A DNA stretch of 64,000 nt from Rhodococcus rhodochrous (GTDB taxonomy: Bacteria; Actinomycetota; Actinomycetes; Mycobacteriales; Mycobacteriaceae): positions 62,001 through 126,000 of the forward strand of contig NZ_CP027557.1 in assembly GCF_014854695.1 (NCBI RefSeq). The letters run 5' to 3'. The first letter of the stretch is position 1. Every line of letters begins with the position of its first letter. Shown in pieces: positions 15,200 to 53,206 of the stretch. A model generated the notes under the pieces. The model saw only the letters and a list, made by a program, of their open reading frames with translations, ran no database searches and was not told the origin of the DNA. Made by a program: the position numbers and the translations under genes.

Positions 15200-16681
15200 A
15201 TGGAACCCGTCGTCGACACCACCGGCGGACGAGTACGCGGTACGACCGTCGGCGGCACGGCCGTCTTCAAGGGCATCCCGTACGCCGCCGCACCTTTCGA
15301 TGAACTGAGATTCGCGGCGCCCGCACCTGTTCCCCGGTGGGACGGCGTGCGCCCCGCGACCGAGTTCGGTCCCACCGCCCCGAAGGCGCCGTACGCCCCG
15401 CCGATCGACCAGCTCCTGCACGAACCGTCGATCCCTGGCGAGGACGTCCTCGGCCTCAACGTGTGGAGTCCCGATCTCTCCGGCTCGCTGCCCGTGATGG
15501 TATGGATCCACGGTGGTGCGTTCGCGCACGGCAGCAGCGCGGTGGCGCTGTACGACGGTGCGAACTTCGCGCGCGACGGTGTCGTCTTCGTCAGCATCAA
15601 CTACCGACTGGGCGCAGAGGGATTCGCGCTCCTCGACGACGCGCCGGCGAACCGCGGTCTCCTCGATCAGGTTGCCGCCCTCGAATGGGTCCGCGACAAC
15701 ATCGCGGCCTTCGGCGGCGACCCGGATCGAGTGACGATCGCCGGTGAATCGGCGGGGGCGATGAGTGTGGTCTCCTTGCTGGCGATGCCCGCCGCCCGCG
15801 GGCTGTTCCGTCGCGCGATCGCCCAGAGCGGCGCCGGACACTCGGTGATGTCGGCCGGCACCGCGCGGACGGTCGCCGGCGCCCTGGGCGACATGCTCGG
15901 CGTCGCCCCGACCCGCGTGGCGTTCGCCGGGATCGACCCGAAGGTGCTCGTCGACGCGCAGGAACGTCTCACGGCCCGGATCCGCGGTGAGCGCGACCCG
16001 GCGACATGGGGTGAGATCGCCACCGATTCGATGGCCTTCGAACCGTGCGTGGACGGGACCGTGCTCCCGGGCCGGCCGATCGACCTCGTGGGGAAGGGCG
16101 CGGGATCCGACGTCGATGTGCTCATCGGCCACAACGACGACGAGATGACGCTGTTCTTCGTGCCTCTCGGGGTCGACGGACTGCTCGACGAGGCCGCTGC
16201 GCGCGGACTCGCCGCCGCCTACGGCCTCACCGATCCGGAGGCGTTCGACGCCTACCGTCGCGCCCGGCCCGATGCTCGTCCCGGTGAGGTGGCCATGCAC
16301 ATCGTGCGCGACTGGATGTACCGCATCCCGGTGCTCCGCGTCGCGGAGGCGCGTGCCGCACACGACGCCGAAACCCATGTCTACCGGTTCGATTGGAAGT
16401 CGCCGCTGTTCGACGGCCGGCTCGGCGCGACCCACGCGCTCGACATCGGTTTCGTGTTCGACAATCTCCATCTCCCTCAGGCCGCGGCGCTCGCGGGTTC
16501 CGCACCTCCGCAGGAGCTGGCGACGCGGATGCACCGGGCGTGGGTGGACTTCGCGACCACGGGTTCGCCGGGATGGCCGCCCTACGGGGACGAACGCACC
16601 GAGATGCTCTTCGGCGACACGTGTACGACCGCCGACGACCACGAGGCCGATCTGCGGACGCTGTGGGACGGAATTCGCTGA
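15200..16681 (+). CDS. Type B carboxylesterase
   Basis: A 493-residue carboxylesterase/lipase family protein. The N-terminus has GRVRGTTVGGTAVFKGIPYA, the oxyanion loop is WIHGGAFAHGSS, and the catalytic Ser is in GESAGAMSVVSLL near residue 188. The acid is probably Glu or Asp in the HNDDEMTLFF region and the His in the ATHALDIGFVF region, which matches the para-nitrobenzyl-esterase type. No signal peptide is seen, so it should act in the cytoplasm on small esters. An ATG with GGAGGAG upstream sets the start. It precedes the catalase by 96 bp but is probably transcribed separately. Confidence 0.9.
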   Translation: MEPVVDTTGGRVRGTTVGGTAVFKGIPYAAAPFDELRFAAPAPVPRWDGVRPATEFGPTAPKAPYAPPIDQLLHEPSIPGEDVLGLNVWSPDLSGSLPVMVWIHGGAFAHGSSAVALYDGANFARDGVVFVSINYRLGAEGFALLDDAPANRGLLDQVAALEWVRDNIAAFGGDPDRVTIAGESAGAMSVVSLLAMPAARGLFRRAIAQSGAGHSVMSAGTARTVAGALGDMLGVAPTRVAFAGIDPKVLVDAQERLTARIRGERDPATWGEIATDSMAFEPCVDGTVLPGRPIDLVGKGAGSDVDVLIGHNDDEMTLFFVPLGVDGLLDEAAARGLAAAYGLTDPEAFDAYRRARPDARPGEVAMHIVRDWMYRIPVLRVAEARAAHDAETHVYRFDWKSPLFDGRLGATHALDIGFVFDNLHLPQAAALAGSAPPQELATRMHRAWVDFATTGSPGWPPYGDERTEMLFGDTCTTADDHEADLRTLWDGIR

Positions 16682-40649: not shown

Positions 40650-42764
40650 TCAGGAACGGGGTGCTCCCGCGGTCGCGACGTCCTCGGTGGCGTCGGGCTC
40701 GGACGGTTCGGTCCGCGCCAGCTTGCTCGGCCACCAGATCTTCTTGCCGATGTCGATCGTCAGTGCCGGCACCACCAGCGACCGCACGAGCAGTGCGTCG
40801 AGGAGGACGCCGAAGGCGACGATGAACGCGAGTTGCGCCAGGAACAGCAGCGGGATCACCGCCAGCGCCGAGAACGTCGCAGCGAGGACCACGCCGGCGG
40901 ACGTGATGACACCGCCGGTGACGGTCAGTGCCCGCAGTGTGCCGGCGCGGGTACCGACCTTCTTCGTCTCCTCGCGGACGCGAGTCATGAGGAAGATGTT
41001 GTAGTCGATACCCAGCGCCACGAGGAAGACGAACCCGAACAGCGGCACCACCGGGTCGGCGCCGGGGAAACCGAGCAGGTCGTTGAACACGAGCGACGAG
41101 ATGCCGAGGGTCGCCGCGAACGAGACGATCACGGTCAGCATCAGCAGGATCGGTGCGACGACCGCCCGCAGCAGTGCGATGAGCACCAGCAGCACCACGA
41201 GCGTCACGGCCGGGATGATGACGGTGCGGTCGCGGGTCGCGGTGTCCTTCGTGTCGAGGTCGACGGCCGTGGGTCCGCCGACGAGTGCCTCGGCGTCGGG
41301 CACGGAGCCCACCGCGTCGCGGATGCGTTCGACGGTCTCCTCGGCGGCGAGGGAGTCGGCAGGATCCGACAGCGTCGCCTGCACCGCGACCAGTCCGTCG
41401 ACCACGCGCGGCGCGCCGTCGGGGCCGGGGACGGGCTGGACGGTCGTCACGCCCTCGACGCCTTCGGTGGCGTCGACGACACCCTCGAGCGCGCCTTCGC
41501 GGGCGACGACGATGCTGGGCGAACCGGTGCCGGCGTCGAAGTGCTCACCGAGCACCTCCTGGCCGGACTTCGAATCGGTCTGCAGGAGGAACAGATCCGA
41601 GGACGCGACACCGCTCGCCTTGAACTGCGGTGCCAGCAGGGCGAAGGCGACGAGCACGAGGCTGCACACGATCCAGATGGGACGCGGCTTCGACCCGACG
41701 AAGTCGGCCACCCGGCCCCACACCTTGTGGGACTTCTGCATGTCGTCGGCATCGGCGTTCGCGTCGTAGACCGGGCGGGTGGGCCAGAACGCGACGCGGC
41801 CGAGCAGCACGAGCGCTGCGGGCAGGAAGGTGAGCGACGCGAGGAACGATGTCGCGATGCCGATGGCGGCCACCGGGCCGAGACCGCGGTTGGAGTTCAG
41901 GTCCGACAGCAGCAGGCACAGCACGCCGAGGATGACTGTGCCGGCGGACGCAGCGATCGGCTCGATCGAACCGCGGAGCGCGCTGCGCATCGCGGCGTAC
42001 TTGTCCTGCTGCAGTCGCAGTTCCTCGCGGTACCGGGAGACCAGTAGCAGTGCGTAGTCGGTGGCGGCACCGAACACCAGGATGAACATGATGCCCTGGC
42101 TCTGGCCGTTGAGCGCGATCGCTCCGGCATCGGCGAGCACGTAGACCAGCAGGCTCGCGAGGGCGAGTGCGAACAGCGCCGAGATGATGACGACGAACGG
42201 CAGGATCGGGCTGCGGTAGACCACCACGAGGATGACGAGAACGACACCGCCCGCGACGAGCAGGAGCAGTCCGTCGATGCCGCCGAAGGCAGACGACAGG
42301 TCTGCGGCCTGCCCGGCGGGGCCGGTGACGTAGACGGTCAGGCCGTCCGGGGCGCCTTCGAGGGCCGTCCGGAGTTCCTCGACGGCCTCCTGGACCTCCC
42401 CGGAGGCGTCGAGTGGCACGATCATCTGCGCCGCTGCGCCGTCCTCGGACGGGATCGGCGGCGGTCCTGCGGATTCGGTGGCCAGGAAGGCGAGGTCCTC
42501 GTCGGTGATCCCGCCGTCGCGTTCGGCGACGACGATCGCGGGGATGAACTCGCTCTCGTTGAACTGCGCGTACAGCTCGTCCGCGCGGGTGGATTCGGCG
42601 GAAGCCGGGAGGAAGGTGCTCGCGTCGTTGGAGGCGACCTCGCTGAGCTTGCCTGCGAACGGACCGCCGCCACCGGCGGCCACAAGCCACGCGATGAGCA
42701 ACAGGGCGGGTAGGAGCCACCGCCATCGGCTGGTTCTGCGTGGGGGCTCGGTAGCAGTGCTCAA
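40650..42764 (-). CDS. MmpL/RND-family transporter
   Basis: A 704-residue MMPL-domain transporter with about 12 membrane segments in two halves, each half led by an extracytoplasmic loop. Helix 4 of the first half has FGAATDYALLLVSRYREEL, and the second half has FVFLVALGIDYNIFLMTRVREE, the Asp-Tyr pairs that relay protons in this family. It is shorter than lipid-exporting mycobacterial MmpL3, close to the drug or lipid exporters of the YdfJ type. The TTG start at 42764 is chosen because AGGAGGAATC precedes it perfectly. It diverges from a MarR gene with a palindrome at its start, so it is probably a repressed efflux pump. Confidence 0.93.
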   Translation of the reverse strand: MSTATEPPRRTSRWRWLLPALLLIAWLVAAGGGGPFAGKLSEVASNDASTFLPASAESTRADELYAQFNESEFIPAIVVAERDGGITDEDLAFLATESAGPPPIPSEDGAAAQMIVPLDASGEVQEAVEELRTALEGAPDGLTVYVTGPAGQAADLSSAFGGIDGLLLLVAGGVVLVILVVVYRSPILPFVVIISALFALALASLLVYVLADAGAIALNGQSQGIMFILVFGAATDYALLLVSRYREELRLQQDKYAAMRSALRGSIEPIAASAGTVILGVLCLLLSDLNSNRGLGPVAAIGIATSFLASLTFLPAALVLLGRVAFWPTRPVYDANADADDMQKSHKVWGRVADFVGSKPRPIWIVCSLVLVAFALLAPQFKASGVASSDLFLLQTDSKSGQEVLGEHFDAGTGSPSIVVAREGALEGVVDATEGVEGVTTVQPVPGPDGAPRVVDGLVAVQATLSDPADSLAAEETVERIRDAVGSVPDAEALVGGPTAVDLDTKDTATRDRTVIIPAVTLVVLLVLIALLRAVVAPILLMLTVIVSFAATLGISSLVFNDLLGFPGADPVVPLFGFVFLVALGIDYNIFLMTRVREETKKVGTRAGTLRALTVTGGVITSAGVVLAATFSALAVIPLLFLAQLAFIVAFGVLLDALLVRSLVVPALTIDIGKKIWWPSKLARTEPSEPDATEDVATAGAPRS

Positions 42765-42797
42765 GATTCCTCCTGGCGTGAGCGAATGTGTCGGAAC

Positions 42798-42818
42798 TAG
42801 ATTATTCAGCGTGCTGAA
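42798..42818 (+). promoter_or_regulatory. Leaderless promoter and palindrome at the MarR start
   Basis: TAGATT (42798-42803) is a good -10 box, seven bases before the GTG start at 42811, the spacing expected of a leaderless message. The palindrome TTCAGCGTGCTGAA (42805-42818) overlaps the start codon. A MarR dimer bound there would block its own transcription and perhaps the divergent MmpL gene. Confidence 0.6.
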
Positions 42819-43311
42819 CGATGGGGGTGGAGACGACCTCGACGAGTGGCCCACCGGACGTCTGCTGTCCACCGCGGCCCGGCTCGTCGAGCAGGCCTGG
42901 GAGCAGTCCTTGCGACGGCGAGGGCTCACCCACGCGGGGGTGATCGCACTGCACGCGGTGGCCCACGCCCCGCTGTCGCAACGGGAGATGGCGCGCGCAT
43001 GCCGGGTGACCGACCAGACCATGAGCCGGACCGTCGACCATCTCGTCCGCGGCGGTTTCGTCACGCGCGCGGTCGACCCGGAGGACGAACGGAGGATGCG
43101 GGTGGAGATCACGCCGTCGGGCGTGGACGCCTACCGGCGCGTGATCGAACTCGAACGCGACGACGAGCCCGGCGGTGATTCTCCGGTCGCGGTGTCGGAC
43201 CCGGCTACCCTGCGCCGGCTCCTGCTCGAAATCGTTCGTTCGCACAGCACTCCTCGTGACAGCGCCGGGAGTACCCACGATCGGGAGAGTCCACCCCTCG
43301 GCGGGATGTGA
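42811..43311 (+). CDS. MarR-family transcriptional regulator
   Basis: A 166-residue MarR protein. The winged helix is complete: HAPLSQREMARACRVTDQTMSRTVDHLVRGGFVTRAVDPEDERRM (about residues 55-100), with the wing at DPEDERR. GTG 42811 fits a leaderless transcript and normal family length; longer in-frame extensions run antisense to MmpL. The last 40 residues are charged and unstructured-looking. The neighbouring MmpL pump is the obvious target. Ligand unknown. Confidence 0.88.
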   Translation: MLNDGGGDDLDEWPTGRLLSTAARLVEQAWEQSLRRRGLTHAGVIALHAVAHAPLSQREMARACRVTDQTMSRTVDHLVRGGFVTRAVDPEDERRMRVEITPSGVDAYRRVIELERDDEPGGDSPVAVSDPATLRRLLLEIVRSHSTPRDSAGSTHDRESPPLGGM

Positions 43312-44170: not shown

Positions 44171-44989
44171 TCAGTCGAGCGGTAGCTGAGCGAAGATCGC
44201 GGTCGGCTGGGTCGACCCGCCCGTCGGTTCGACGCTGAAGGCGAGCGCGGTGGCACCCGAGATGTCCTCGAGCACCGCGGTCGTCGACGGCGCGACGTCG
44301 TCGGGTGTCATCGTGCCCGCGGGTTCCATGCCCTCGGGCCCGACCAGCCACATCTGGTAGACGCTGCCCTCGGCCGGCGGGGCGACGTTGTTCATCACCA
44401 GCACGCCCGCGTCCTCCTCCTTGGAGAACACCACGGTCGCGGTGCCGCCACCGTCGAGCTCGCCCGACGAGGTCCGTACGTCCTCGGCGGCGAAGACCCG
44501 CTCGCTCGTGCCCGGCTCGGACGTGGTCTGCCACTGACCGGCCACCACGACGCCGCCGATCGCGACGATCACGGCCGCTGCCGCGGCGAGCAGGAAGTTC
44601 CGCCGTCGGGCCTGGCGGCGCTCGTCGAGGGAGACGGGCGGGGGGAGGTGATCGTCCTCCGCCCGAGCTGCCTCGGTCGCCTCCGGCTCACCGGGTCGTT
44701 CCGTGTGCGTCTTCTCGGCGGGCGTTTTCGCAGTGAGTTCGGCGTGGACCAGATCGAGCAGTCGCACCCGGAGTTCGGGCGGCGGCTCGGTCGCGGTAGC
44801 GGCCGACATCGCCGCGAGGGTCTCGTGGACCTCGCGGACCTCGGCGTCGAACCGTTCGGCCACCTCCGGGTCTGCTTCCGCGAGTCGCTCGGCGAGCTCC
44901 CGACGCTCGTCGGGCGTGACGGCATCCAATGCGAAGACGGGTGCCATGTCGAGCAGATCGCGCGAGGAATCGTTCGCCTCATCAGCCAT
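44171..44989 (-). CDS. rskA: Anti-sigma-K factor RskA
   Basis: A 272-residue single-pass membrane anti-sigma factor. Residues 1-85 are the cytoplasmic anti-sigma domain (LLDMAPVFALDAVTPDERRELAERL), residues about 131-152 the membrane helix (FLLAAAAAVIVAIGGVVVA), and the rest the extracytoplasmic RskA domain with MVNNVAPPAEGSVYQMWLVGPEG-like motifs (here VMNNVAPPAEG then YQMWLVGPEG). It should hold SigK inactive until the outer domain is cleaved by site-2 proteolysis. It overlaps sigK by eight bases, giving coupled translation, and ends the operon that begins with the alpha/beta hydrolase. Confidence 0.9.
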   Translation of the reverse strand: MADEANDSSRDLLDMAPVFALDAVTPDERRELAERLAEADPEVAERFDAEVREVHETLAAMSAATATEPPPELRVRLLDLVHAELTAKTPAEKTHTERPGEPEATEAARAEDDHLPPPVSLDERRQARRRNFLLAAAAAVIVAIGGVVVAGQWQTTSEPGTSERVFAAEDVRTSSGELDGGGTATVVFSKEEDAGVLVMNNVAPPAEGSVYQMWLVGPEGMEPAGTMTPDDVAPSTTAVLEDISGATALAFSVEPTGGSTQPTAIFAQLPLD

Positions 44990-45554
44990 CCACAGTCACC
45001 CCCAGACAATTCTTCAGTCGTTTCAGGCCGTCCCGGATGCGCGACTTGACCGTCGGCAACGGGGACGAAAGTTCTTCTGCCACTTCGGTATACGTAAAGC
45101 CTCTGTAGTAGGCGAGCTCGACCGAGCGTCGCTGCAGTTCGGTGAGCGAACCCAGACACTCGTTCACCCGGCGGCGATCGTCGCGCTGCGCGACCTCCTC
45201 GCTCACCGAGTCGAAGGCCGCGTCGACGTTCGTCGAACCGTACTGCGACTCGCGGTCGGCTCCGGACTGTTCGCTTCGGACCCGGTCGACGGCGCGCCGA
45301 TGGGCGAGCGTGATGATCCACGACAGAGCGGAACCCTGACGCGGGTCGTACTTGTCGGCCGACCTCCACACCTGGAGGTAGACCTCCTGGGTGGTCTCCT
45401 CGCTGTAGCCGGGATCCCGCAGGACCCGCAGCACCATGCCGAAGACTCGGGAACGCGTCGCGTCGTACAGTTCGGCGAACGCCGTGGGGTCTTGCCGGGC
45501 CACCCGCCCGAGCAGTTCGCCGAGGGTATCGGTATGGCCTCCGACGCCGGTCAT
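44982..45554 (-). CDS. sigK: ECF RNA polymerase sigma factor SigK
   Basis: A 190-residue ECF sigma factor. Region 2 is FAELYDATRSRVFGMVLRVLRD with the -10-reading segment TTQEVYLQVWR, and region 4 is LTELQRRSVELAYYRGFTYTEVAEEL followed by PTVKSRIRDGLKRLK. Assignment to SigK rests on sequence style, on coupling to RskA, on the neighbouring DUF1365 gene (as in mycobacteria) and on three promoters nearby that match the SigK consensus. ATG 45554 was chosen because homology begins there; the ribosome-binding site is weak, suggesting low translation. Because its own operon promoter matches the consensus it should be autoregulated. Confidence 0.88.
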   Translation of the reverse strand: MTGVGGHTDTLGELLGRVARQDPTAFAELYDATRSRVFGMVLRVLRDPGYSEETTQEVYLQVWRSADKYDPRQGSALSWIITLAHRRAVDRVRSEQSGADRESQYGSTNVDAAFDSVSEEVAQRDDRRRVNECLGSLTELQRRSVELAYYRGFTYTEVAEELSSPLPTVKSRIRDGLKRLKNCLGVTVDG

Positions 45555-45631: not shown

Positions 45632-46255
45632 TCACCCCATCCACATCCGAGCACGGAGAACCGTCGTGAGATCGACGGGCAGCCGTTCGCCGCTGACGGT
45701 CGCGGTGAACACCGGGACGCCGGGCCGCCGCAGGGCGACCGAAACCGCGAACATGTCGCCCGCCCGGGTGATGATGTCGATCTCGTCCGAGCGCAGCGTG
45801 TAGCAGTGCCGTCCGTTCCGGCGCGAATGGATCTCCGCGACCACACAGGCCAGGGAACCACTCGGATCGTGGCACCAGAACAGGTTCAGCGGATCCGATC
45901 CGAGACCGAGACGCCGGATGTTCAGCAGCGCCGTGATCCGCCCGCCCGCAACCCGCACCCCGTCGGCCACGAGCTGGTCCTCGACCCGGCCGCGGAAGGT
46001 GTCGGAATCACTCGCGACGAAGTGGTCCCACGGCTCGAACCGCATCAGCGTGCGCAGCCACCAGGACGAGGGCGTCGTCTCGTCGACGTCCATGACCCAG
46101 CTGAAGCCGCGGTACTCGAGCGAGGGGCACTCGGCCGAGCCCTGCGCGTGGCGGACGAAGGTCCGGTAGATCGCCGGCGCGACCGCTTCCCGGCCACCCC
46201 GGAACTCGACGTCGTCGCCGATCATCGCGACTGCGCGGGGAAGGTCAGGATGCAT
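45632..46255 (-). CDS. DUF1365 protein, shortened
   Basis: A 207-residue DUF1365 protein. It has the family's [11 protein letters not shown], then [35 protein letters not shown] and [15 protein letters not shown]. The central motif normally following (Lys-x-Phe-Tyr-Val-Ser-Pro-Phe) is absent: the sequence passes from HCYTLRSDE directly to [14 protein letters not shown], about 25 residues short, and the C-terminus is also short. DUF1365 proteins sit beside FAD oxidoreductases and cyclopropane-type methyltransferases (Rv0447c-Rv0449c in M. tuberculosis) and are linked to fatty-acid modification under light or oxidative stress. Those partners are missing here. It overlaps the hydrolase gene by 11 bases. 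Confidence 0.8.
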
Positions 46256-46880
46256 GGTCGTCTCCGGGGCACGTGGTCGGTTTCCCCGCCAGTGTGCACG
46301 TGAGGAAATCGGCCGTGGTGTCGGCCCACCAGCGCGGGTCGGTGAGGAGGAAATGTCCGGCTCCGGGCAGGGGCCGCCAGCGCGTGTTCACGCCCCGGTC
46401 TCCCGCCGCCATCGTCTGGCTCTGCGCCATCCGTGGATCGGTCCTGGTGTCCTCCGTACCGTGCGCGACCAGCAGGTGCCGGCCCGCAGGGATCAGGTCG
46501 GCGTCGTCGGCCGGCCACCACGGAGCCAGGGCGACGAGCGACTCGACTCCGTGCTGGGCCGCGAGATGCGCGATCGCCCGCGCACCCATCGCGTGCCCGA
46601 CCAGACCGAACCGGACGTCCCCACGACGCCGGGTCACCGACTCGATCGCCCGCAGACCGTCGCGGACCGGGCTCATGTGATCGTCGTTCCACCCGCAGTA
46701 CCGGTAGTCGACGAGGTCGACCGCGATGTCGTACTTGCTCAGCCTCAGGCGCAGTGCATCGGTGAACAGACGCATGCGCAGCTGCGACGGATGCCACGGA
46801 CGTGGCGGTGTGGTGCCGACCGGACGCCCACCGGGCAACACGAGTACGTGAGCCGGTCGGAGATCCTCGACGTTGTCCAT
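46245..46880 (-). CDS. Alpha/beta hydrolase-fold protein lacking the nucleophile Ser
   Basis: A 211-residue alpha/beta hydrolase fold. The nucleophile elbow reads [14 protein letters not shown], with Ala (codon GCG) where Ser is expected. The acid (HGTEDTRTD) and the His (GAGHFLL) are present, so the fold looks intact but classical esterase catalysis should not work. The first strand is [10 protein letters not shown]. The ATG at 46880 is preferred to 46889 because the SigK-type -10 hexamer covers 46888-46893, putting transcription start at about 46880 and making the message leaderless. It is the first gene of the hydrolase-DUF1365-sigK-rskA operon and overlaps DUF1365. Confidence 0.78.
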
Positions 46881-46887
46881 GACCTGC

Positions 46888-46914
46888 ATTCGGAGCCGAC
46901 CGCGATCCGGATGG
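46888..46914 (-). promoter_or_regulatory. SigK-type promoter of the hydrolase-sigK-rskA operon
   Basis: On the minus strand CCATCC (46914-46909), 15 bases, CCGAAT (46893-46888). These are exactly the -35 and -10 hexamers I recall for M. tuberculosis SigK. The extended upstream element CGACCCATCCG is shared with two other promoters in the window. It implies SigK autoregulation. Confidence 0.75.
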
Positions 46915-46959
46915 GTCGAACACCGGATACCGATCCGAAAAAAATTCTTTCGATCCGAC

Positions 46960-46986
46960 CCATCCGCACCGCCCCGGGGATCGAAT
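46960..46986 (+). promoter_or_regulatory. SigK-type promoter of the fasciclin-lipocalin operon
   Basis: CCATCC (46960-46965), 15 bases, TCGAAT (46981-46986), with the same extended CGACCCATCCG. It is divergent to the sigK operon promoter, with the two -35 boxes 45 bp apart. Start of transcription should be near 46993, leaving about a 58-base leader before the fasciclin ATG. Confidence 0.72.
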
Positions 46987-47051
46987 GCTCAGTGACACAC
47001 CTGGTCGACGTGGCTGCTTTCCGGCCACGGCATACGAAGGGAACCACGATC

Positions 47052-47726
47052 ATGAACATCACTGCGCGCAAGAGCCTGGCCGCCGTCGGAATCGGTGCGA
47101 TGTCCCTGCTGGGTGTCGCGGCATGCTCCGACGATTCGGGGAGCGACACGGACGAGACCACGATGGAGGAAACCGTCGAGGAGACCATCGTCGAGGAAAC
47201 CACCACTGCTGCAACGGGAACCGCTGCTCCCGCTGCCGGCCCCGTCGGCCCGGGTTGTGCCGACTATGTCGCCGCGAACCCGACCGGCCCGTCGTCCGTC
47301 GAGGAACTCGCGAACCAGCCTGTCGCCGAGGCCGCCGGAAACGTGCCGATCCTGACCACTCTCACGCAGGCCGTATCCGGCCAGCTCAACCCCGACGTCA
47401 ACCTGGTCGAGACACTCAACGGTGGCGAGTTCACCGTCTTCGCACCGGTCGACGACGCGTTCGCCGCCCTGCCGCCGGAGACCGTCCAGACGCTGCAGAC
47501 GGATTCGGCTCTGCTCACCGACATCCTCACCTACCACGTGGTTCCCGGTGAGCTGACCACCGCCGACATCGCCGGCACGCAGACCACCGTCCAGGGCGGC
47601 ACCGTCGAGGTCGCCGGCGAGGGTGAGATGTGGACCGTCAACGACGCCAACGTCATCTGCGGTGGCATCGAGACCGAGAACGCCACCGTGTACCTGATCG
47701 ACGGCGTTCTCATGCCCCAGCAGTAA
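47052..47726 (+). CDS. Fasciclin-domain lipoprotein (MPT83-like)
   Basis: A 224-residue lipoprotein with lipobox LLGVAAC (Cys near residue 25), an acidic Glu/Thr linker to residue 65, and one fasciclin (FAS1) domain. Its landmarks are [46 protein letters not shown] and the closing [12 protein letters not shown]. This is the architecture of mycobacterial MPT83/MPT70, which are the main SigK-dependent antigens. Cys in GPGCADYV and NVICGGIE probably form a disulphide. AAGGGA precedes the ATG. It is driven by the SigK-type promoter upstream and shares its message with the lipocalin 30 bp downstream. Role: envelope-anchored adhesion or lipid-contact protein (family knowledge). Confidence 0.92.
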
Positions 47727-47756
47727 CCGATACCGGACGACGGAAAGGTAGAAGAC

Positions 47757-48347
47757 ATGCGTAGGTCCCGACACGGCGTTCGGGGGCTTGCGGCGGCGTT
47801 CATCGCCGCCGCAGGCGCGCTCCTGTTCGCCACGCCCGCCGCCGCAGCCCCGCTCACCCCGGTTCCCGAGCTCGACGTGAACCGATATGTGGGGCAGTGG
47901 TATCAGCTCGCCGCCAATCCGGCTCCCTACAACATCGACTGCGCTCGCGACACGACGGCGTTCTACACGCTGCTCGACGAACGCAACGTGCGCGTGGAGA
48001 ACTCGTGCACCACGTTCACCGGTGATCGTCGCGGGATCATCGGGAGCGCTCGTGTGAACGACACTGCTGCACTGCACGTGTCGTTCCCGGGGGTGCCGTT
48101 CCAGGATTCGCTCGACGGACCGAGCAACTACATCGTCACGTATCTCGCGGACGATTACTCGTGGGCATTCGTCGGTGACCCGACGCGCATCTCCGGATTC
48201 GTACTGTCGCGTTCGCCCGTCGTGAGCGACGACGCGTGGCGCGAGATCCGGAACGTCGTCGAGGCGAGCGGGTACAACTCGTGCCTGATGCTCACCTCGC
48301 CCACCACCGAGGGACTGCAGGAGATCAAACCGCTCTGCACCGTGTGA
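47757..48347 (+). CDS. Secreted lipocalin (Blc-like)
   Basis: A 196-residue lipocalin with a Sec signal peptide (residues 1-31, ending TPAAA before Ala-Pro). The diagnostic GxW motif is in NRYVGQWYQLAANP near residue 47, and the third conserved region is near YIVTYLADDYSWAFVGDP. Cys in IDCARD, NSCTTF, NSCLML and LCTV can form two disulphides. Blc-type lipocalins bind fatty acids or lysophospholipids and are common in light- and stress-induced clusters. It is the second gene of the fasciclin operon, followed by a strong terminator. Confidence 0.9.
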   Translation: MRRSRHGVRGLAAAFIAAAGALLFATPAAAAPLTPVPELDVNRYVGQWYQLAANPAPYNIDCARDTTAFYTLLDERNVRVENSCTTFTGDRRGIIGSARVNDTAALHVSFPGVPFQDSLDGPSNYIVTYLADDYSWAFVGDPTRISGFVLSRSPVVSDDAWREIRNVVEASGYNSCLMLTSPTTEGLQEIKPLCTV

Positions 48348-48361
48348 CTCTCGGGACGATC

Positions 48362-48403
48362 GGGGTGGTGTGCGGATCCAGAGGAAGATCCGCACACCAC
48401 CCC
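48362..48403 (+). terminator. Terminator of the fasciclin-lipocalin operon
   Basis: A perfect 17-bp stem (48362-48378 with 48387-48403; arm begins GGGGTGGTGTGCGG) with an eight-base loop, 14 bp after the lipocalin stop. It can also serve the convergent SDR gene. Confidence 0.75.
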
Positions 48404-48492
48404 CGATTCGTCGTCTCGGTAGATCCGCTCGCGAATTCGCCATCTGCTACAGCAATTGCCGCAGCGGATGGCGAAAGATGTAGCGGATCGCT

Positions 48493-49956
48493 CTAGCGGC
48501 CGGCGGTGCCCGCGATGTTCTCGAGCATCCCGCGGAAGATGATGCCGTGGAAGGGAACCAGCGCGTACCAGTAGAGACGGCCGGCGACGCCGCGCGGGAA
48601 GAAGATCGCCCGCTGGTGCACGCGCGACCGACCCGACTCCAGAGGCTCGACCCGCCATTCGAGCCACGCCCCGCCGGGTGCCCGCATCTCCGCGCGCAGG
48701 CGGAGCAGCGTCGGGCGTTCGATCCGTTCGACGCGCCAGAAGTCCAGGGCGTCGCCGGTGTGCAGGGTCTTCGGGTCGCGGCGACCCCGGTGGAGTCCGA
48801 CGCCGCCGACGAACCGGTCGAGCCAGCCGCGGATGGTCCACGCCAACGGGAAGGAATACCAACCGTTCTCGCCGCCGATGCTCTCGACGACGGCGAACAC
48901 CTTCTCCGGAGACGAATCCGACTCGAGTGACCGTTCGTCGGTGAAGACGACCTCGCCGGCCCAGTCCGGATCGGACGGAAGCGGATCGGCGGGTGCACCG
49001 ACCGGTGACGCGTTCGTCCACGTCGTCTCGACCTCTCCCCGTTCGATACGGCCGAGGGCGAGCCGGACGGCGTCGCGGTAACCGGTGAGGCCGGATTCCG
49101 GTGGGGGGATGATCGAGTCGACGTCGCGATTGCGCATCACCGCGTCGGTCGACAGCGATTCGAGGAGCGCCCGGCCGAGAGGCGGAGGGATCGGCGTGAC
49201 CAGACCGATCCACAGACCGGCGAGCTTCGGGGTGAGGACGGGAAGGACGAGGATCCGGCGTTTCGTCAGACCGGCGACCTCCGAGTACTGCTGCATCATC
49301 TCGCCGTACCGCAGCACGTCGGGCCCACCGATGTCGTAGGTGCCGCTGCGGGGGAGGGGTGCATCGGCGGCGGCGACCAGATAGTGCAGGACGTCGCGCA
49401 CCGCGATGGGCTGGATCCGGTTGTTCACCCAGCGCGGAGTGGTCATGACGGGGAGCCGGTTGCTCAGGTGCCGGATCATCTCGAACGACGCCGAACCCGA
49501 ACCGATCACGACCCCGGCCTGCAGCACGAGCGTCGGCACACCGGAATCCGTCAGGATGCGTCCGACCTGGGCGCGCGAATACAGGTGCGGTGAGAGATCA
49601 CCCGACTCCGGGTGCAGCCCACCGAGGTACACGATGCGGGAGACTCCGGTGTCGCGTGCCGCGTCGGCGACGTTCTGTGCGGCCCGCTTCTCCGCGTCGA
49701 CGAACTCGTCGCGGCCGCCCATCGAATGCACCAGGTAGTACACGACGTCGATGTCGCGACACGCCTCGTGCAGCGATTCGGCGTCGTCGAGGTCGCCGCG
49801 GACGATCTCGACGTCGTCGGCCCACGGCACGTCGCGCAGTTTGTCGGGGCTGCGCGCGAGCACCCGTACCCGGTAACCCGCCTCGAGCAGGCGTGGAGCG
49901 AGCCGGCCACCGATGTAACCGGTCGCTCCGGTGACCAGGACTCGCTTTCCGCTCAC
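48493..49956 (-). CDS. NAD(P)-binding SDR with DUF2867 C-terminal domain
   Basis: A 487-residue two-domain protein. Residues 1-300 form an atypical SDR (NmrA/complex I intermediate-associated type), starting KRVLVTGATGYIGGRLAP and with DVVYYLVHSMGG and YLGGLHPESGD. Residues 320-487 form DUF2867, a START/SRPBCC-like module (FAVVESIGGENGWYSFPLAWTIRGWLDRFVGGVGLHRGRRD). The GTG start has GGAGGAG upstream. Its start overlaps the stop of the upstream TIGR01777 gene by four bases (GTGA), so the two are one operon. Such proteins accompany photolyase and carotenoid clusters in many bacteria, but their reaction is unknown. Confidence 0.88.
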   Translation of the reverse strand: MSGKRVLVTGATGYIGGRLAPRLLEAGYRVRVLARSPDKLRDVPWADDVEIVRGDLDDAESLHEACRDIDVVYYLVHSMGGRDEFVDAEKRAAQNVADAARDTGVSRIVYLGGLHPESGDLSPHLYSRAQVGRILTDSGVPTLVLQAGVVIGSGSASFEMIRHLSNRLPVMTTPRWVNNRIQPIAVRDVLHYLVAAADAPLPRSGTYDIGGPDVLRYGEMMQQYSEVAGLTKRRILVLPVLTPKLAGLWIGLVTPIPPPLGRALLESLSTDAVMRNRDVDSIIPPPESGLTGYRDAVRLALGRIERGEVETTWTNASPVGAPADPLPSDPDWAGEVVFTDERSLESDSSPEKVFAVVESIGGENGWYSFPLAWTIRGWLDRFVGGVGLHRGRRDPKTLHTGDALDFWRVERIERPTLLRLRAEMRAPGGAWLEWRVEPLESGRSRVHQRAIFFPRGVAGRLYWYALVPFHGIIFRGMLENIAGTAGR

Positions 49957-51317
49957 GGCTCCTCCAGGATGTGGCCGAGTTGATGGCGCAGCGACGCTTC
50001 GAGATCGGGACGCCGGAACCGGTGCCCGACGTCGATCAGCGCCTTCGGGACGACGAACTGATCGGCCTGGGCGACCTCGCGTGCACCCTCGTCGCCGAGC
50101 AGCAACCGTGGGCCGAAACCGGGGACGGGCAGCAGTGCGGGACGGTGCAGCACCGACGCCAGTACTCGGGTGTACTCCTCGTTGCGCACCGGTTGCGGTG
50201 CAACGGCGTTCACCGGCCCGGCCAGGCCCGGGTCGGTGAGGGCGCGGTGATAGACCTCGAGGAGGTCGTCGATGTCGATCCAGGAGAACCACTGCCGGCC
50301 GTCGCCGAGCCGGCCTCCGAGACCACTCGCGAACAGCGGCCGCATCAACTGGAGCGTTCCGCCGCGAGGTGTCTGGACGATGCCGGTGCGCACGTGCACG
50401 ACCCGCATGCCCTTCTTCTCCGCGGGATGTGCCGCGGCCTCCCAGTCGGCGACGACGTCGGCGAGGAAACCCGTTCCACGTGACGCTTTCTCGTCGAGCG
50501 GTGTGTCTCCTCGGTCGTAACCGTAGAAGCCGATCGCGGACGCGGAGACGAAGGTCGCAGGACCGTTGGGTGTCGTCGCGGCGAGTTCGGCGAGTCGGCG
50601 TGTCGGTTCGATGCGGCTGTCGCGGATCGCGGCCTTGTGGGAGTCGGTGAACCGTCCCGCGATCGACGCGCCCGCGAGGTAGACGACGGCGTCGACGCCT
50701 TCGAGCAGGTCGGGCGCCGGATCCTGCGGGTCCCAGCGTCGTTCGTCGGGGCGCTGCGGTTTCCGGCGCACCAGGCGGACGACCTGGTAGCCACCCGTGG
50801 ACAGAAATGCCGTCAGGGCGGTACCCACGAGTCCGCTCGATCCCGTCACCGCGACCGTCCCGGGCCGGATGCCCTGCGCGTGCGACCAGCGGTGGCTCGC
50901 GAGATCGTCGGCGAGCTGGCGATGCCGGTAACGGAAGGTCTGGGTGAGGAAACGGCCCGGTACCGGCGTGTCGACGCGATCGGTGACGCGGGTGCGGAAT
51001 TCGTCGACGACGTCGAAGCGGTGTTCGTGGCGCCACGAGCCGATGACGGTGGCGGGGCGCGACAACAGACCGTCGTGGGAGAGTTCGTCGACGAAACGCG
51101 CTGGTGGATCGTAATCCTCGGGTCTGTGCCGGGAGATCCAGCGTAGTCCGCCGGGGAGACCGAGGACGGCCGTGCCGGATTCGAGGGAGTCGGCCTCGGC
51201 GACGACGCTCATCGGTTGCCAGGGCGGGATCAGACGGAGGATGGCGCCGGGACGGGAGTGCCAGTCGAACACTTCGTCACGCGGTGCGTCGACGGCGCTC
51301 GAGAATTCGATGCCCAT
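49953..51317 (-). CDS. TIGR01777 oxidoreductase with N-terminal SRPBCC domain
   Basis: A 454-residue protein. Residues 1-145 are an SRPBCC/cyclase-like domain (SSAVDAPRDEVFDWHSRPGAI). From residue 152 (TVAVTGSSGLVGTALTAFL) it is a TIGR01777 (YfcH-type) epimerase-fold protein with VYLAGASIAGRFTDSHKAAIRDSRI, FVSASAIGFYGYDRGD, and DIDDLLEVYHRALTD. The C-terminal DUF1731 segment (LGHILEEP) is present. It is the mirror of the next gene, which has an SDR followed by an SRPBCC-like domain. Both lie downstream of the SigK-type microprotein promoter, with a hairpin between that may let some transcripts through (inference). Confidence 0.9.
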   Translation of the reverse strand: MGIEFSSAVDAPRDEVFDWHSRPGAILRLIPPWQPMSVVAEADSLESGTAVLGLPGGLRWISRHRPEDYDPPARFVDELSHDGLLSRPATVIGSWRHEHRFDVVDEFRTRVTDRVDTPVPGRFLTQTFRYRHRQLADDLASHRWSHAQGIRPGTVAVTGSSGLVGTALTAFLSTGGYQVVRLVRRKPQRPDERRWDPQDPAPDLLEGVDAVVYLAGASIAGRFTDSHKAAIRDSRIEPTRRLAELAATTPNGPATFVSASAIGFYGYDRGDTPLDEKASRGTGFLADVVADWEAAAHPAEKKGMRVVHVRTGIVQTPRGGTLQLMRPLFASGLGGRLGDGRQWFSWIDIDDLLEVYHRALTDPGLAGPVNAVAPQPVRNEEYTRVLASVLHRPALLPVPGFGPRLLLGDEGAREVAQADQFVVPKALIDVGHRFRRPDLEASLRHQLGHILEEP

Positions 51318-51379
51318 GCCCTACCTCCCGTTCGCAGAGTGCTCACCCGGTGGTGACGGCGCCGGGGCGCCCAGTGGTC

Positions 51380-51407
51380 ACGGCGCCGGAGCGGACTCCG
51401 GCGCCGT
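51380..51407 (-). terminator. Terminator or attenuator after the microprotein gene
   Basis: A perfect 12-bp stem: ACGGCGCCGGAG (51380-51391), loop CGGA, CTCCGGCGCCGT (51396-51407). It lies six bases after the microprotein stop on the minus strand, in the position expected for a gene-specific terminator, and 62 bp before the TIGR01777 gene start. Confidence 0.7.
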
Positions 51408-51413
51408 ATCCAC

Positions 51414-51503
51414 TCAAGCAGGAAGGACGCTGATCAGGAAGGTGTATGCGTCGACGAGCGGGTTGTGGATGGCCATGAAAGCTGCTTCGACGAGAGCGCG
51501 CAC
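51414..51503 (-). CDS. 29-residue hydrophobic microprotein under a SigK-type promoter
   Basis: A short frame of 29 codons starting with GTG, with AAAGGA seven bases upstream. It begins (M)RALVEAAFMAIHNP and ends TFLISVLPA: an N-terminal charged helix followed by a hydrophobic, Pro-terminated segment, suggesting membrane or protein docking. Three independent marks support it: a ribosome-binding site, a SigK-type promoter 53 bp upstream (51556-51582) and a perfect terminator hairpin six bases after the stop. I recognise no family. It lies between the photolyase and the SDR pair, all on the minus strand. Confidence 0.62.
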   Translation of the reverse strand: MRALVEAAFMAIHNPLVDAYTFLISVLPA

Positions 51504-51555
51504 TGCGGTGTCCTTTCGTTGGGTGTACGGCGAACACGTTGTCCGTCCGGAAGTT

Positions 51556-51582
51556 GTTCGGAGCACCGCCACGACCGGATGG
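51556..51582 (-). promoter_or_regulatory. SigK-type promoter of the microprotein gene
   Basis: On the minus strand CCATCC (51582-51577), 15 bases, CCGAAC (51561-51556), differing from the sigK operon promoter only in the last -10 base. The extended CGACCCATCCG and the GCTCCGAA around the -10 box are identical to those of the sigK operon promoter. It sits 19 bp beyond the photolyase stop. Confidence 0.7.
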
Positions 51583-51600: not shown

Positions 51601-52956
51601 TCATCGGGGTGAGCGAATCCGCTCGTATCTGTCCAGAGCGACGCGACGTTCGTGTGCGTGATCGACGACCGGTTCCGGATATCCGTCCGGAGGGCCGTCG
51701 GGCAGGCTGTGCACACGAGCGCCGTCGATGCTCCGCAGTTCGGGTACCCACCTGCGCACGTATTCACCCCTCGGATCGAACTTCTCGCCCTGCCGGGTCG
51801 GATTGAACACCCGGAAGTAGGGAGCGGCGTCGGTGCCGCTACCTGCCGTCCACTGCCAATTGTGTTGGTTGGACGCCAGATCGCCGTCCACCAGATGCTT
51901 CATGAAATGTCGTGCCCCGCGCCACCACGGCAGGTGCAGATCCTTCGTCAGGAACGACGCGACGATCATCCGCACCCGATTGTGCATGACGCCCTCGGCG
52001 AGAAGCTGCCGCATCCCGGCGTCCACGATCGGGAATCCCGTCCGGCCCTCGCACCATGCCGCGAACAGGGCGTCGGCGTCGGGTCCGGAATCGTAGGTGA
52101 TGGCGTCGAAGTCGCTGTTGTAGTTGGTCCGGGCGGTCTCGGGCCGCTGGAACAGGACGTCGGCGTAGAAGTCGCGCCACGCCAGTTCGCTGCGGAAGGT
52201 GACGGCCCCGTCGTCGGACCGGTTCCTCATGTCGTGCAGCAGGGTCCGCGGATGGATACAGCCGAATTTCAGATAGGGCGACAGGCCGCTCGTGCCGTCG
52301 AAGGCCGGCCGGTCGCGGTCGGTGGCGTACCGCTCGAGACCGTCGTCGAGGAATTCGCGCCACCGCACCAGCGCGGCCGCCTCTCCGGGGGGAGGTGCGG
52401 GTTCGTAGCCCGCCTCGGGAATCGGCACGCGTGCGGAGCAGCCGCTCGGGTCGACCCAGTCGGCGGTGTCCGGTCCGGTCGCCGCGGGTGTGTGCCATCC
52501 GTGGTCGTTCCAGGCGCGGCGGAAGGCCGAGAACACCTTGTATACAGTGCCGTCGGGTTTCGTCACGCGGCCCGGCGTGACGGCATACGGCGAGCCGGTG
52601 GCCACCAGCGGGACGTCGCCGAGCGCTTCGGCGACCGCCCGGTCACGTCGCGTGCCGTAGGGCCCGTGATCCGAGCTGATGTGGACCGCGGTCGCATCGA
52701 ACTCGGCGGCGACCTGCGGCACCAGGGTCACCGGGTCTCCCTCGACGACGAGCAGGCGCCCGCCGAGATCCCGGTCGAGGGCTCGCAGGCATCCCATGAG
52801 GAAGTCGCGCCGGCGGGCCCCGGACGGGCGGAGCAGTGCGTCGTCGAGGACGAACAGGGCGAGGACGTCGTCGGCGGCCTCGGTCGCCGAGAGCAGGGTG
52901 GGCAGATCGTTCAGTCGGAGATCACGACGGAACCAGATGATGCTGGGGCGGGCCAT
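51601..52956 (-). CDS. phr: Deoxyribodipyrimidine photolyase
   Basis: A 451-residue class I photolyase that uses light to split cyclobutane pyrimidine dimers. The N-terminal alpha/beta domain opens ARPSIIWFRRDLRLNDLPTL. The FAD pocket is marked by LSPYLKFGCIHPRTLL, ELAWRDFYADVLF, TGFPIVDAGMRQL, GVMHNRVRMIVASFLTKDLH, and GDLASNQHNWQWTAGSGTDAAPYFRVFNP, with the catalytic Trp and Asn in place. ATG 52956 is chosen because the family begins there; a second ATG at 52986 would overlap the divergent S4 gene's start. It lies upstream of the SigK-type microprotein promoter, inside the stress island. No LitR gene is visible. Confidence 0.96.
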   Translation of the reverse strand: MARPSIIWFRRDLRLNDLPTLLSATEAADDVLALFVLDDALLRPSGARRRDFLMGCLRALDRDLGGRLLVVEGDPVTLVPQVAAEFDATAVHISSDHGPYGTRRDRAVAEALGDVPLVATGSPYAVTPGRVTKPDGTVYKVFSAFRRAWNDHGWHTPAATGPDTADWVDPSGCSARVPIPEAGYEPAPPPGEAAALVRWREFLDDGLERYATDRDRPAFDGTSGLSPYLKFGCIHPRTLLHDMRNRSDDGAVTFRSELAWRDFYADVLFQRPETARTNYNSDFDAITYDSGPDADALFAAWCEGRTGFPIVDAGMRQLLAEGVMHNRVRMIVASFLTKDLHLPWWRGARHFMKHLVDGDLASNQHNWQWTAGSGTDAAPYFRVFNPTRQGEKFDPRGEYVRRWVPELRSIDGARVHSLPDGPPDGYPEPVVDHAHERRVALDRYERIRSPR

Positions 52957-52984
52957 GGATCCAGTGTCGGGGACAATGGGTGCC

Positions 52985-53206
52985 ATGTCCGACGCATTCG
53001 ATGTACCGATCCGTGACGAGTCGATCCGGCTCGGTCAGTTCCTCAAGCTCGCAAGCCTCATCGAGTCGGGTGCGGAGGCCAAGGAAGTGATCGCCGACGG
53101 CCTGGTGTCGGTCAACGGTGACGTGGAGGTGCGTCGCGGCCGTCAGCTGAAGGTGGGCGACGTGGTGGAGATCGCCGGGGCGAGCGCGCGGGTCGCGCAC
53201 GAATAG
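52985..53206 (+). CDS. S4-domain RNA-binding protein
   Basis: A 73-residue single S4 domain of the YbcJ/YaaA kind. IRLGQFLKLASLIESGAEAKEVIADGLVSVNGDVEVRRGRQLKVGDVVEI covers almost the whole protein (residues 13-62). Such small proteins bind structured RNA, often near ribosome biogenesis. Its ATG is 28 bp from the divergent photolyase start, so the two promoters overlap. Function otherwise unknown. Confidence 0.88.
   Translation: MSDAFDVPIRDESIRLGQFLKLASLIESGAEAKEVIADGLVSVNGDVEVRRGRQLKVGDVVEIAGASARVAHE

Follow-up and report, generated by a model that had tools for sequence, protein, structure and literature searches.

We analysed a stretch of 64,000 nucleotides from Rhodococcus rhodochrous (NZ_CP027557.1, positions 62,001 to 126,000), here called the window, which carries the genes for the sigma factor SigK and its anti-sigma factor RskA. 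The explanation that best fits our findings, to which we give a probability of roughly 85%, is that SigK, held in check by RskA, transcribes four short units from promoters sharing one motif, three of them inside the window and the fourth just beyond its end. According to this model, the membrane anti-sigma factor RskA would hold SigK until a signal frees it. From promoter P1, the free sigma factor would then transcribe a hydrolase-DUF1365-sigK-rskA operon, resulting in positive autoregulation along with synthesis of its own inhibitor, and from P2 a fasciclin and a lipocalin gene. P3, directly downstream of a photolyase gene, would drive a small open reading frame (ORF) of 29 amino acids followed by the genes of two epimerase-like enzymes, and P4 a small ORF of 43 amino acids followed by the carotenoid synthesis genes crtI, crtB and idi. 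The signal, at even odds or marginally better, would be light-driven membrane damage, answered by carotenoids and lipid modification. The sequence comparisons give good support to the motif and its conservation, to the link with sigK and to the gene content, and from these findings we infer that SigK binds at these sites and that transcription starts there.

An earlier note on this DNA had placed three SigK-type promoters in the window, and their positions proved exact: P1 on the minus strand at 46914-46888, P2 on the plus strand at 46960-46986 and P3 on the minus strand at 51582-51556. As it had also stated, they share one -35 element (CCATCC) at identical spacing from the -10 element, reading CCATCC-N15-CCGAAT, CCATCC-N15-TCGAAT and CCATCC-N15-CCGAAC, respectively, each inside CGACCCATCCG. 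The genome scan it had proposed was carried out as a pattern search with the strict form CGACCCATCC-N15-NCGAA, which gave four matches in the whole 6.09-Mb genome and none with the reversed control. All four lie inside C1:108889-131401, a span of 22.5 kb, and under uniform placement the probability of three further sites falling within 22.5 kb of the first is about 4e-7. The fourth match, P4, ahead of a carotenoid operon outside the window, had been overlooked, as had the small ORF behind P3. With the looser CCATCC-N14-17-CGAA, the window contains four matches versus 0.89 expected, namely P1, P2, P3 and, without relation to them, a site at 16550-16576; four matches were reached in 2 of 100 shuffles, and this excess is only weak evidence for the motif. 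The sites, judged from their sequence and surroundings, are almost certainly SigK promoters, with the core (A)CCCATCC-N16-CGAA(T).

The spacing between the two boxes was compared in 80 named sigK loci (L096-L175), which are the best 80 of 230 and come mostly from Rhodococcus, Mycobacterium/Mycolicibacterium, Nocardia and Gordonia; they are not independent, because they include close relatives of each other and of the 18 genomes of our genus set. CCATCC-Nx-CGAA gave 92 matches at N16, spread over 59 loci, versus 2-12 at each other spacing from N10 to N23, and the reversed and permuted patterns gave none at N16. In the same loci, ACCCATCC-CGAA was found 58 times at N16, 7 times at N17 and 0-1 times elsewhere. 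The seven matches at N17, compared with 0-1 at the other wrong spacings, suggest that one extra spacer base is probably tolerated and that the N17 sites are possibly SigK promoters too. CCATCC and CGAAT boxes with the preferred spacing occur upstream of sigK and fasciclin genes, and most motif sites in the named loci lie ahead of sigK, the sigK operon or fasciclin genes. Within the genus set, CGACCCATCC-N14-16-CGAA was matched in 15 of the 18 genomes, in some cases away from sigK, and its reversed control in none.

In mycobacteria, the strict ACCCATCCG-N15-CGAAT occurs in 59 of 118 genomes (reversed control, 0/118). It is present in 58 of the 97 genomes with sigK versus 1 of the 21 without (Fisher p = 3.6e-6, ignoring kinship and completeness, and counting as sigK or a second copy the SigK matches of G127, G151 and G171, which are only 51-53% identical), and this co-occurrence argues that the motif is tied to SigK. 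At wrong spacings in the 80 named loci, the forward motif gives about 6 matches per spacing and the reversed one fewer than 1, which makes the reversed control a lenient one; clustering and spacing are therefore the better evidence, and both the spacing test and the sigK co-occurrence test are independent of that control. When one mismatch was allowed in ACCCATCC-N16-CGAA, the own genome yielded 37 additional sites versus 7 for the reversed control, an excess that the leniency of the control could explain. One of the 37, at C1:3429950, ends in TCCGAA as P1 and P3 do. We set these sites aside as regulon members, given that the reversed control understates chance, and further weak SigK targets may be found among them. 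The local SigK regulon proposed in the earlier note is thus supported by conservation, fixed spacing and co-occurrence with sigK; its wording that the sites define a regulon is better taken as an interpretation.

Family models confirm the identity of the sigma and anti-sigma pair. sigK (44982..45554, minus strand) encodes an extracytoplasmic function (ECF) sigma factor of the ECF19 type that matches the NCBIfam model PRK09646 with 303.9 bits (cut-off 226) and has the SigK chain 4nqw_A as best PDB match (E 1.6e-67); the nearest named SigK, among the best 80 of 230, is that of Rhodococcus gordoniae (97%). The rskA gene (44171..44989, minus strand) overlaps the sigK stop codon, and its product matches RskA_N and RskA_C of Pfam above cut-off. 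These genes are preceded by one for a DUF1365 protein (45632..46255, minus strand; PF07103) and, as first gene behind P1, by one that appears alpha/beta-hydrolase-like by eye (46245..46880, minus strand) and has no Pfam or NCBIfam match. With P1 ahead of the sigK-rskA operon, autoregulation is the natural reading, in agreement with the earlier note. The ATG of the first gene lies 8 nucleotides after the -10 element of P1, and a CATG is equally distant in the 14 aligned sites, which suggests that the mRNA is probably leaderless. Among the 18 sigK loci of the genus set, P1 is exact in 13, has one mismatch in 1 and is missing from 4, the contig being short or incomplete for L080 and L085 and adequate for L081 and L086. 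Two cysteines are invariant in the 15 aligned Rhodococcus SigK sequences and align with cysteines of 4nqw_A; in M. tuberculosis SigK, the conserved C133 and C183 have a role in activity (PMC7509140). Near sigK, at 40650-43311 of the window, lie a gene for an MmpL transporter and, divergent from it, an ORF that looks MarR-like by eye.

P1 and P2 stand back to back between the sigK operon and the fasciclin operon, the divergent arrangement described in the earlier note. The fasciclin gene was detected in 16 of the 18 genus loci, and P2 is exact in all 16. In the window, P2 is followed by genes for a fasciclin-domain protein with a lipoprotein-like signal by eye (47052..47726, plus strand; PF02469) and a lipocalin-like protein (47757..48347, plus strand; PF08212). 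Between the divergent -35 boxes, at 46915-46955 of the window, lies an A/T-rich tract that, on inspection by eye, recurs in most of the 16 P2 sites aligned; it is a possible UP element common to both promoters. P3 is located between the photolyase gene (51601..52986, minus strand), whose end is just upstream of it, and the genes for a TIGR01777-family NAD-dependent epimerase (49953..51317, minus strand) and an NAD(P)-binding/DUF2867 protein (48493..49956, minus strand). In the 15 genus loci where this stretch could be seen, P3 is exact in 13, has one mismatch in 1 and is missing from 1. The photolyase as a direct SigK target is unsupported, as P3 sits behind its gene. In three other species, SigK-like sites near a methyltransferase gene and facing away from it (L085:10403, plus; L075:7566, minus; L088:7347, minus; one exact, two with one mismatch) are possible further targets. 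The alignments of P1 to P4 were built solely from sites picked for the motif, with one mismatch as the maximum. The high identity of the core thus arises by construction; what the alignments do show is divergence of the spacer and flanks.

The fourth strict site, P4 (C1:131372-131401, equal to L005:11373-11402), lies 5.4 kb past the window end and is followed by crtI (TIGR02734), crtB and an isopentenyl diphosphate isomerase-like NUDIX gene (idi). Our survey of the genus set, in which one 75%-complete genome has no match, gave 28 crtI matches, of which 11 are type A (73-100% identical to the own crtI) and 17 type B (65-68%). An exact CCATCC-N16-CGAAT precedes all 11 type-A operons, at most 1.5 kb from crtI in ten; in G017 it lies about 2.5 kb upstream, ahead of carotenoid-synthesis (PF04240) and glycosyltransferase genes. 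A twelfth type-A operon, from Rhodococcus sp. OK519, carries the motif in the same position, which brings the total to 12/12, with the A of ACCC lost in three (L059, L089, L206). By comparison, about 4 kb upstream of each of the 17 type-B crtI genes is free of exact sites on both strands, suggesting that one crt copy is under a SigK-type promoter and the other is not. The 1.5-kb flanks of 30 crtI loci from 50 named genomes lack the exact motif in every case, the OK519 site lying farther upstream. A general link to crt genes in mycobacteria was rejected, with 1 of 82 crtI genes carrying the motif upstream (strict form only, coordinates compared by eye). Since crtI loci outside the genus set almost all lack the motif, the putative SigK-carotenoid link is lineage-specific. 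In Mycolicibacterium palauense, a full CGACCCATCCG stands about 1.2 kb upstream of crtI (L207:5663, minus), which may represent an independent recruitment or chance.

Both P3 and P4 are followed by a small ORF that we take to be translated, and neither small-ORF family has a Pfam or NCBIfam match. The 29-amino-acid ORF, the first behind P3 (51414..51503, minus strand), has no annotation and is preceded by an AAAGGA ribosome-binding site. Of the 10 leaders translated, 9 carry it intact, with the start one codon earlier in L083, and G006 has an in-frame stop; the ratio of nonsynonymous to synonymous rates (NG86) is 0.12-0.41 in four pairs; we accept it despite the G006 stop because it is kept in 9/10 leaders with mostly third-position changes. 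No copy was detected by tblastn in L081, L082, L087 and L088, where the P3 leader has only about 60 nucleotides. Between this ORF and the epimerase genes lies a strong GC hairpin (51378..51407, minus strand); the 103-nucleotide leader 51318-51420 folds at z -3.0, with 1 of 200 shuffles as good, and relatives show, by eye, GC hairpins of different sequence at the same place. The hairpin is a possible partial terminator or processing site.

The 43-amino-acid ORF between P4 and crtI (L005:11502-11633, plus strand) has the core GFLQLFMEA, and in the own genome its stop codon overlaps the crtI start. An ORF with the core GFL(Q/H)(L/M)FM(E/D)A is present in 12/12 type-A operons, the core having been found by regular expression and being conserved by construction, and its codon positions vary 45/0/217. 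Its stop lies within RTGA in all 12, and in 9 of them the RTG visibly opens the next long ORF, seven times crtI and twice a cruF-like gene. This stop-start overlap suggests that the small ORF is translationally coupled to the first enzyme. In G002 (L062), a homologue of the P3 small ORF is additionally present in the P4 leader before the carotenoid operon, with 17 of 28 residues identical to the P3 small ORF of the same genome, a similarity reached by none of 100000 shuffles.

The SigK-RskA system of M. tuberculosis/M. bovis resembles the one described here in its orthologous SigK and RskA with two aligned cysteines, its promoter ahead of the sigK operon and its fasciclin-domain targets. Its regulon, including mpt70, mpt83 and the sigK operon, was reportedly described by Veyrier et al. 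in 2008, and the DUF1365 operon member is presumably shared as well. The carotenoid operon, the lipocalin, the small ORFs and the P3 epimerase genes are what sets the Rhodococcus system apart. We take a SigK promoter consensus to have been published; our literature search gave no paper containing it. The same search, with most subscription papers beyond its reach, returned no paper that places carotenoid synthesis under SigK. SigK autoregulation and fasciclin targets are already known in mycobacteria (as cited in PMC7509140, PMC9861118 and PMC4821874), and the new part seems to be the target set.

The nature of the signal can be approached from the genes served. Carotenoids, the neighbouring photolyase and lipid enzymes suggest photo-oxidative stress. 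In R. wratislaviensis (L109), an amine-oxidase-like FAD protein, DUF1365, two cyclopropane-synthase-family (CFA) genes and DUF1295 are encoded ahead of sigK, the order in the related group being hydrolase-FAD oxidase-DUF1365-CFA-CFA-DUF1295; in the window, the hydrolase gene and sigK have no FAD oxidase, CFA or DUF1295 gene between them. In 10 of 28 genomes of the wider R. wratislaviensis group, the tandem CFA pair is not next to sigK: it lies 280-350 kb away in 7 and on another contig in 2, and 1 genome has no sigK match. In the eight of these ten that were examined, the CFA operon, 280-350 kb from sigK in 7 and on another contig in 1, opens with the motif, which is exact in 7 and has one mismatch in 1; sigK-fasciclin keeps its own exact site in 8/8. 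At E <= 1e-40, no further cyclopropane-synthase matches of these genomes stand in tandem. In R. erythropolis under white light, two cyclopropane-synthase-family proteins with the consecutive accessions WP_060938639 and WP_060938640 are raised 22- and 44-fold at 40 h, the values at 122 h being 19- and 32-fold (PMC9416670), and they are possibly the CFA pair of a SigK-type operon.

The next-best PDB match of the own SigK is the RpoE chain 2q1z_A, which we take to be from Rhodobacter. ChrR of R. sphaeroides, the anti-sigma factor of that system, is a zinc-cupin protein, whereas the anti-sigma factor studied here matches only RskA_N and RskA_C in Pfam, and the two systems are alike in how they work only. 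RpoE-ChrR is likewise an ECF sigma and anti-sigma pair; its targets in R. sphaeroides include cyclopropane-synthase-family genes and a photolyase, and in R. capsulatus a cryptochrome/photolyase operon adjoins the pair (PMC7074977). The singlet-oxygen-induced R. capsulatus RpoE/ChrR stands at 34%/25% to SigK/RskA, versus 24%/13% to the R. sphaeroides pair (PMC7074977). In addition, the fasciclin genes mpk83 and mpk70 of M. kansasii, with putative SigK sites, are light-induced 6- and 3-fold (PMC9861118), and the abundance of RskA drops in Nesterenkonia after ultraviolet (UV) irradiation (PMC8965627).

Taken together, these published light, UV and singlet-oxygen results, each of them indirect, make light-driven membrane damage, of a photo-oxidative or singlet-oxygen type, the leading candidate for the signal, at even odds or marginally better. 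Its closest competitor, only a little less probable, accepts the sites as SigK-dependent promoters and takes the signal to be envelope or redox stress in general (lipid peroxides, thiol oxidation, nutrient limitation), carotenoids being just one of several membrane antioxidants induced. The two conserved cysteines with a role in SigK activity (PMC7509140), the largely lipid- or envelope-related gene content and the bridging of M. tuberculosis sigK to a sigma-factor community linked to nutrient limitation (PMC4821874) are in line with this notion. Light is favoured instead by the light- or UV-linked data from R. erythropolis, M. kansasii and Nesterenkonia, by the induction of the R. capsulatus homologue by singlet oxygen and by the adjacent photolyase gene.

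A second alternative concerns P4, which could be an inherited relic, the type-A crt operon being run by another regulator such as a MarR/CrtR-type repressor as in Corynebacterium. CrtR-type light control of carotenoids is known in actinobacteria (PMC6739363, PMC5401885): the C. glutamicum crt operon, like the one proposed here, belongs to a light-responsive carotenogenesis, but under the MarR-type regulator CrtR and not an ECF sigma factor (PMC6739363). M. kansasii has crt, MarR and MmpL genes together in a light-induced locus, which recalls the MmpL gene and MarR-like ORF near the own sigK, the latter a point for this alternative; its fasciclin genes with putative SigK sites rise in light as the present model would have it, yet its crt locus is under a MarR-type CrtR, with no SigK site at crt reported in the accessible text (PMC9861118). 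A relic would nevertheless hardly be expected to look like P4, as all 12 type-A operons keep the core and spacing exact while mean identity has fallen to 58% in the spacer and 43% in the flanks, and as the motif is also kept exactly where the first enzyme gene is cruF-like and not crtI. We therefore consider this alternative unlikely.

Even less probable is that the motif is read by one or more other ECF sigma factors and lies at sigK incidentally. A loose first look gave 29-45 SigK-like candidates per Rhodococcus genome, so other ECF factors do exist, and mycobacterial sigma factors are cross-regulated (PMC4821874); this alternative leaves unaccounted for, however, the co-occurrence of motif and sigK in mycobacteria (58/97 versus 1/21) and the many named loci of Rhodococcus, Nocardia and Mycobacterium where the motif stands ahead of sigK, the sigK operon or a fasciclin gene. 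That the conserved sequence, known as it is from DNA letters alone, should be an operator or other DNA element rather than a promoter is very improbable given the strongly preferred 16-base spacing, the asymmetric two-box form, the orientation towards genes and, in P1, the ATG at a fixed short distance.

Several observations weigh against the SigK model or parts of it. Even with one mismatch allowed, two of the 16 genus loci with adequate contigs, L081 and L086, have no P1, and one of 15, L079, has no P3. The spacing has exceptions, as ACCCATCC-CGAA occurs 7 times at N17, and the reversed control of the genome searches understates chance, as seen in the 80 named sigK loci. No SigK motif stands ahead of the photolyase gene in the stretch scanned, the strict motif is upstream of only 1/82 mycobacterial crtI genes, and the Rhodococcus type-B crt operons are without it. 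Concerning the signal, the identification of the R. erythropolis pair depends on consecutive accessions and a tandem arrangement, and more distant tandem pairs are conceivable. Furthermore, the accessible text of that light study names SigF and SigB, not SigK (PMC9416670), and the induction of mpk83 and mpk70 in M. kansasii is far below that of most crt and photolyase-locus genes (PMC9861118).

A wider proposal, which we advance tentatively and at somewhat less than even odds, is that actinobacteria use SigK-RskA as a switch dedicated to photo-oxidative stress. In Rhodococcus it would drive a duplicated carotenoid operon, and the two families of small proteins at the start of its transcripts would serve as working parts. 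These may act, for instance, as membrane helpers of lipid or carotenoid enzymes, or as feedback regulators. The stimuli of SigK-RskA have been called obscure with regard to antigen genes of the mpt70/mpt83 type (PMC9861118), and such a dedicated switch, if true, would give the SigK regulon its missing stimulus. A pigmented soil relative in which SigK drives carotenoid synthesis would, if this is borne out, offer a visible read-out, so that the light and singlet-oxygen hypothesis for SigK would become testable without a pathogen, and the two families of conserved small ORFs with which putative SigK transcripts begin provide a further lead.

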